Source: Phycisphaerales bacterium (GTDB lineage Bacteria > Planctomycetota > Phycisphaerae > Phycisphaerales > UBA1924). From it: a stretch of 64,000 bases of DNA. Under the pieces are notes generated by a model. It had not been told where the DNA came from. It searched no databases and worked only from the letters and a program-made list of their open reading frames with translations. The stretch spans positions 1-64,000 of the forward strand of contig JADYYE010000168.1 of the NCBI GenBank assembly GCA_020853815.1, given 5' to 3'. A program made the translations under genes and the position numbers. Shown one piece after another: positions 7,776 to 39,706 of the stretch (positions are counted from its first letter, which is position 1; the number at the start of each line of letters is the position of its first letter).

Positions 7776-8097
7776 AGAGGTGGTCGGGTGGTCACATGAT
7801 CTGTGTGCATGGACGACTTTGCGTGCCGCCCGACTCTCACATCCGAATGCCGAATGGAACCTCTGAACGATTCGAACCCTGGCGCGAAGAGCGTCTCTAC
7901 TTGATCCGGAGAACCCGCCTCGGAGAGGCGGGCCACCAAATACGCTGAGGTTTCGAATCACGAGTGCCGAACGTCGGGTGACTCGCCTACGCCCGACCAC
8001 TTCCTCCGATCTCCGCCACTTTTCGCCCTCCTCCGCTGGACTCCCGCCCGCGCGCCACTTTCAATCCCCGCGACCACCACCTCCACCGGAGTCCCTC
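7776..8097. other. 322-bp intergenic region carrying a heptamer tract and an inserted element
   Basis: The spacer between the fusion gene and rpiB is mostly repetitive. A CGARTGC-type heptamer tract is split by a 99-bp palindromic element (described separately, 7856-7954). After it the heptamers continue (CGAGTGC, CGAACGT, CGGGTGA, to about 7982). The Shine-Dalgarno of rpiB (CGGAGTCCCTC) is at the end. No gene is seen. Confidence 0.6.
7856..7954 (+). mobile_element. MITE-like 99-bp element, copy 1
   Basis: The left end is GGAACCTCTGA and the right end is CTGAGGTTTC, an imperfect terminal inverted repeat. Inside is the hairpin CCCGCCTC-GGA-GAGGCGGG followed by CCACCAA. It aligns over its whole length with the reverse complement of 39603-39699. 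GAAT flanks both sides. Removing the element plus one GAAT rejoins two heptamer units in register (CGAATGC CGAATCA). No open reading frame lies inside. Confidence 0.7.
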
Positions 8098-22652: not shown

Positions 22653-22768
22653 AAGGCAGAGACGACGCGATTGAGCCGTAAGCGCTGGTCGGTCGTGCGC
22701 GATGAAACCACCACGAGCTTTGCACTCGAGCGGATTCGCTTGGAGTCGGGCGTCATGTCGCACGCCCA

Positions 22769-22796
22769 GGCAATGGGCAATAGGGAATGGGCAATG
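22769..22796. repeat. Heptamer tandem repeat, 4 units (reverse orientation)
   Basis: Units GGCAATG, GGCAATA, GGGAATG, GGCAATG, which are reverse complements of CATTGCC-type units found at 39585 and 15847. Confidence 0.8.
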
Positions 22797-22859
22797 GGAA
22801 GACGCGCCACTTGAAGTGAAACCGATCTCGCCGGCGCTTCGGGCTCGTCAAGACTTCTG

Positions 22860-37625: not shown

Positions 37626-37680
37626 CCGCCTCTTGGTGGCCCACCTCTTGGTGGCCCGCCTCTCCGAGGCGGGTCTTGAA
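37626..37680 (-). repeat. REP-like core element with duplicated tail
   Basis: On the minus strand it reads ACCCGCCTC-GGA-GAGGCGGG CCACCAA, the same hairpin core and CCACCAA tail as the 97-99 bp elements at 7856 and 39603. The tail is then repeated in tandem (GAGGTGGGCCACCAA, GAGGCGGGCTAC). The GGAACCTCTGA terminal repeats are absent, so this is a core fragment or a separate unit. Confidence 0.75.
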
Positions 37681-39547: not shown

Positions 39548-39584
39548 ACCGATTCCCTTTCAAGCGGCGCGCCTTCCAACTCAC

Positions 39585-39706
39585 CATTCCCCATTGCCCA
39601 TTGGAACCTCTGAGTAGTTGGTGGCCCGCCTCTCCGAGGCGGTTTTTCAGCCCACTGGAAGCGGACCTCGCGGCTGAACTCGAATTGTTCAGAGGTTCCC
39701 ATTGCC
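39585..39706. repeat. Heptamer tract interrupted by an inserted element
   Basis: CATTCCC (39585), CATTGCC (39592) and CATT (39599-39602) are followed by the 97-bp element. CATTGCC then resumes at 39700. Excision of the element with one CATT gives consecutive CATTGCC units. Confidence 0.85.
39603..39699 (-). mobile_element. MITE-like 97-bp element, copy 2
   Basis: Perfect 11-bp terminal inverted repeats: GGAACCTCTGA at the left and TCAGAGGTTCC at the right. The internal hairpin is GCCTC-TCC-GAGGC with the GTGGCCC arm preceded by TTGG. Flanking CATT on both sides is a candidate 4-bp target duplication. Reverse complement aligns throughout with 7856-7954. It has no coding capacity. Confidence 0.8.

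Follow-up and report, generated by a model that had tools for sequence, protein, structure and literature searches.

The question at this locus

In a Phycisphaerales genome, a tract of CATTSCC heptamers is interrupted by a 97-bp sequence that has the same four bases on either side, and the question is whether this sequence arrived by transposition and, if so, what kind of enzyme could have moved it. Tract and element together span positions 39585-39706 of the window, that is, of the whole stretch of 64,000 nucleotides that was analysed. The element itself occupies positions 39603-39699 on the plus strand and belongs to a young subfamily, from whose consensus it differs by 1 substitution. It opens with the terminal inverted repeat (TIR) GGAACCTCTGA (39603-39613, plus strand) and closes with the exact reverse complement of that sequence (39689-39699, minus strand), so that the two TIRs are complementary at 11/11 positions. 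CATT is found directly before the element (39599-39602) and directly after it (39700-39703), as the two copies of a target duplication. The left part of the tract reads CATTCCC CATTGCC CATT (39585-39602, plus strand) and the tract resumes with CATTGCC (39700-39706, plus strand); excising the element together with one CATT restores CATTCCC CATTGCC CATTGCC, in register.

A sequence-only reading of this locus had already claimed the perfect 11-bp TIRs, the flanking CATT and the preserved register, all of which were confirmed, and had taken them as the transposition footprint of a tiny non-coding, MITE-like element with a 4-bp duplication, a view now supported by the other copies in the genome and by empty sites. 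Indeed, the element has what is expected of a MITE, being short, lacking a transposase gene and carrying perfect 11-bp TIRs, and its association with the CATT duplication is not due to chance. Very probably, the 97-bp sequence is a non-autonomous, non-coding MITE of the IS5 family that was moved in trans.

Copies in the genome and their age

With the 122-bp query, 50 matches were obtained in the genome to which the window belongs (G000; 4.5 Mb in 329 contigs, 93.7% complete), and 48 copies are listed with both ends. These represent at least 46 loci, as four entries located at contig ends share 127 bp and, judging from those contig ends, are probably two loci. The young subfamily comprises 39 copies of 97 bp, which are on average 0.82 substitutions per 97 bp away from their consensus, and 16 of them match it exactly. 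Older copies, diverged or of other length, account for 9/48: those of 98-99 bp mostly have a partly different core (contigs C183, C192, C256 and C163, and window positions 7856-7954), while the copy on C116 is diverged and still 97 bp long. The older copy within the window is 99 bp long, lies on the minus strand and is flanked by the 4-bp duplication ATTC (GAAT on the plus strand). More diverged relatives of the MITE are present in the genus-mates G001, G002 and G003. The picture is that of an older family that has recently undergone a new burst.

The same ends are also found with differing cores in MITEs of 97-99 bp from three other genomes, G017, G136 and G362 (L095-L098, L101, L106, L111 and L112), so that length is conserved despite changes in the core. 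Tandem arrays of the MITE in a single orientation, with a spacing of 108-109 bp, were observed at L034 (152-464), L024 and L035, and one copy on C163 resembles a chimera of the old and young subfamilies. Searches for the element in Rfam and in plasmids and phages gave no match. All IS and MITE sequences considered here come from draft or metagenome assemblies.

Target duplication and target preference

When young copies with distinct flanks are counted, the window's genome offers 35 sites. At 29 of them, the direct repeat measures exactly 4 bp, and repeats of 3 or of 5-9 bp were found at none of the 35. Perfect duplications are missing from the other six, two of which (C130 and C145) belong to tandem arrays in which the spacing is 108 bp. 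The sequence-only reading had pointed to the flanks of copies elsewhere as the place where its proposal could fail, and these copies do carry 4-bp duplications. More specifically, 18 of the 29 duplications lie outside a heptamer context (as defined by a script) and consist of varied 4-mers, including AAGT, GATT, TTCT, TCCT and AGAG; therefore, the tract does not explain the duplication away.

The duplication is preceded by C at 24/29 sites and followed by G at 28/29, and the target can be described as C-NNNN-G with an A/T-rich centre. The frequent G prompted consideration of a 5-bp duplication, NNNNG, which was rejected because the base next to the 4 bp is C, A or G in the full-length ISs, and at one MITE site it is A. 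Among the 44 distinct sites of all ages, 12 lie within or adjoin a run of at least two heptamers. Heptamer tracts supply GCC-CATT-GCC, which fits the C-NNNN-G target and makes such a tract a good one, so that the nesting follows from target choice.

The insertion target in the window is part of a dispersed heptamer-bearing repeat, a point absent from the sequence-only reading; one arm of this repeat, TTCAAGCGGCGCGCCTTCC, lies at positions 39559-39577 (plus strand). Heptamer tracts are often located within this repeat, whose arms are GGTTTCACTTCAAGTGGCGCGTCTTCC and TGGGCGTGCGACATGACGCCCGACTCCAAGCGAATCCGCTC and which was observed at window positions 22728-22825, at L200 and on contigs C9, C32, C242, C265 and C199; it is possibly a second MITE-like family. 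A 14-mer of the heptamer occurs 130 times in the genome when up to one mismatch is allowed.

Empty sites

An uninterrupted heptamer site, which the sequence-only reading had proposed to look for, exists in the same window for another filled heptamer repeat. The element-free copy (22728-22825, minus strand) has a single TATT where the filled C32/C265 site has two, and it is identical to the filled flanks over 47 bp to the left and 51 bp to the right of the insertion point; this comparison is paralogous, since the filled flanks come from two contigs sharing a 127-bp repeat. Nor are the sites always filled in relatives, which that reading had named as an outcome that would count against it: the site on C101 is empty in the genus-mate G003, with 86% identity across the joined flanks, and in G002 too, and the flanks of the C87 copy align without the element in both G002 and G003, although the junction itself carries small indels. 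The C79 copy was left out of the empty sites because its junction is not spanned by the aligned stretch. As for the insertion in the window itself, the upstream gene has a different neighbour downstream in G001 and G002, where both tract and element are missing. As the neighbouring genes of the relatives differ, we infer the empty state of this particular site from the preserved register of the tract rather than by comparison with an orthologous locus.

The terminator-like core

Inside the element, a hairpin with the consensus form of an intrinsic terminator, which the sequence-only reading had not mentioned, lies at positions 39626-39647 (plus strand), where a perfect stem, CCGCCTC/GAGGCGG, encloses TCC and is followed by TTTTT. 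Folded as RNA, the complete element scores better than shuffled versions of itself (z -4.2, plus strand). The hairpin also exists by itself: without MITE ends, TTGGTGGCCCGCCTCTCCGAGGCGGG was observed at window positions 37649-37673, directly behind a gene, as well as in several relatives, and may represent a terminator or a GTGG-tagged REP-like repeat.

Such a core invites the suggestion, compatible with the element being a MITE, that copies are kept as portable transcription terminators at gene ends. The perfect stem with its T5 run would fit this role, the hairpin is intact in 37/39 young copies (with at least four T in 36), and most copies are located between genes and after 3′ ends. However, intact hairpins are to be expected anyway in copies this young, terminator-like sites are common in shuffled sequence, and copy orientation with respect to the closest 3′ gene end, 18 sense and 12 antisense by gene calls that are codon-usage predictions (as are the positions), shows no significant bias; retention for this purpose therefore seems unlikely. 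A more elaborate version, in which an IS5-type element captured a lineage-specific terminator or REP hairpin, would thereby limit read-through from the neighbouring gene at each insertion, be tolerated or even favoured, and home to the heptamer tracts of another dispersed repeat, appears more doubtful still.

The likely mover

The full-length transposon with such ends that the sequence-only reading suggested looking for is present in relatives from the same taxonomic family, but was not found in the window's own genome. In that assembly, no long element with exact GGAACCTCTGA ends was detected, a search with the N-terminus of the transposase gave no match, and a search with PF01609 gave only two matches, both in elements with other ends, which makes these two transposases unlikely movers. 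A PF01609 match in G120 was likewise set aside, as it belongs to another IS. The absence of a partner applies to an assembly that is 93.7% complete and split into 329 contigs, and relatives show contigs that end in such ISs: five genomes of the same taxonomic family have contigs breaking off inside an element with such an end and a frame starting MAIRKN or MAVRKN.

Complete ISs of 1139-1175 bp were recovered by the N-terminus search from other genomes of the same taxonomic family. Their ends are GGAATCTCTGAACAAT / GGAACCTCTGATCAAT or similar, and 7 of the 8 ISs listed have perfect 4-bp duplications (TCAC, AGTT, TAGT, TATT, AAAC, ATCT and AAAT). They encode a protein of 321-323 amino acids that matches the IS5 family transposase model NF033581 with 252 and 267 bits (cut-off 140), as well as the Pfam families DDE_Tnp_1 (PF01609) and DUF772 (PF05598). 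These partner ISs match the MITE both in their ends (GGAAYCTCTGAWCAAT) and in the length of the duplication; in G017, where both kinds of element occur, the IS end GGAATCTCTGAACAATACCA and the MITE ends GGAACCTCTGAACAATACCA agree at 19/20 bases. Only about 10-17 terminal bases are common to the MITE and the known ISs, and the MITE thus did not simply arise from one of them by internal deletion. What places it in the IS5 family is its ends, the length of its duplication and its relatives, rather than a partner within its own genome.

If the MITE was moved in this way, an IS5-family DDE transposase provided in trans would recognise the GGAACCTCTGA ends, excise or copy the element, and join it to target DNA opened by a staggered cut of 4 nt at C^NNNN^G, with an A/T-rich centre; repair of the gaps would then yield the 4-bp duplication, which is CATT at the window insertion. 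The mover would presumably be the transposase of the relatives, or else a similar one that the window's genome has since lost or that its assembly lacks; an IS5-family element beginning with 20 bp that match GGAACCTCTGAGTATTTGGT or GGAACCTCTGAACAATTCGA would be a candidate.

It is improbable that the mover was a DDE transposase outside the IS5 family whose ends are alike by coincidence. Such a coincidence could draw on the missing partner in the assembly and on the limited terminal identity, yet the ends, the 4-bp duplication and the match in G017 all fit IS5-type elements, and ISEc68, a named member of the IS5 family, likewise has GGAA ends (GGAAGGTGCGA) with TTAA on each side. Hardly credible, and already refuted in large part by the diversity of the duplications and by the empty sites, is a repeat of the REP or terminator type whose copies were distributed through recombination, gene conversion or the action of a RAYT (HUH) enzyme, with CATT as a mere part of the heptamer, since exact 4-bp repeats of many sequences occur at the 18 non-heptamer sites and HUH enzymes are not known to make a target duplication. 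What recommends it is that the core hairpin TTGGTGGCCCGCCTCTCCGAGGCGG exists without TIRs at window position 37650 and in relatives, and that a GTGG tag ahead of the palindrome resembles GTAG-tagged REPs (PMC3733652).

Relation to known systems and significance

The IS5-family MITE proposed here has counterparts in several described systems. Its 4-bp duplication and GGAA ends are shared with IS5-family elements of the NF033581 type such as ISEc68, and its full-length relatives encode an IS5-family DDE transposase; it differs from them in being 97 bp long and geneless and in ending in GGAACCTCTGA rather than in the GGAAGGTGCGA of ISEc68, and its C-NNNN-G target with an A/T centre is not limited to TTAA or CTAG. 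Bacterial MITEs such as RUP, Nezha, Correia/NEMIS and QMITE (PMC10969869) are similarly short and intergenic, with TIRs and a target duplication, and are moved in trans, whereas the Phycisphaerales host, the sequence and the consensus intrinsic terminator in the core set the present element apart. The BrickBuilt MITE of Porphyromonas gingivalis (PMC4596501) also combines IS5-family-like TIRs with tandem repeats, but holds its minisatellite inside, while here the tandem tract is the target. In Streptococcus pneumoniae, SPRITE is a comparable terminator-like small repeat and RUP/BOX clusters are comparable nested elements (PMC10969869), unrelated to this MITE in sequence and host. A further MITE-like element, of 111 bp with ends GGAACCTCTGAACAATTCG / GGAAGGTCTGAACAATTG and a TTAA duplication, was noticed in the Proteobacteria MAG RGIG4413 (L088 1178-1288 and other contigs), in an unrelated phylum.

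Transposase-moved bacterial MITEs, IS5-family-like MITE ends, terminator-like repeats and nested elements have all been described already (PMC10969869, PMC4596501, PMC3733652). The literature on MITEs and transposases in Planctomycetes that was covered, in part and mostly as titles and abstracts, and including PMC3733652 and PMC9208149, holds nothing on this element, and no claim to a first report is made.

The element adds a clean new case, from an uncultured planctomycete lineage, to an already known class of parasite DNA. It belongs to a well-documented MITE family, in which duplications, empty sites and full-length relatives link a MITE to IS5-family transposases, and its C-NNNN-G preference explains why copies are nested in heptamer tracts. 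With its terminator-bearing core, the family also offers a testable case of insertions that could shape transcript ends.
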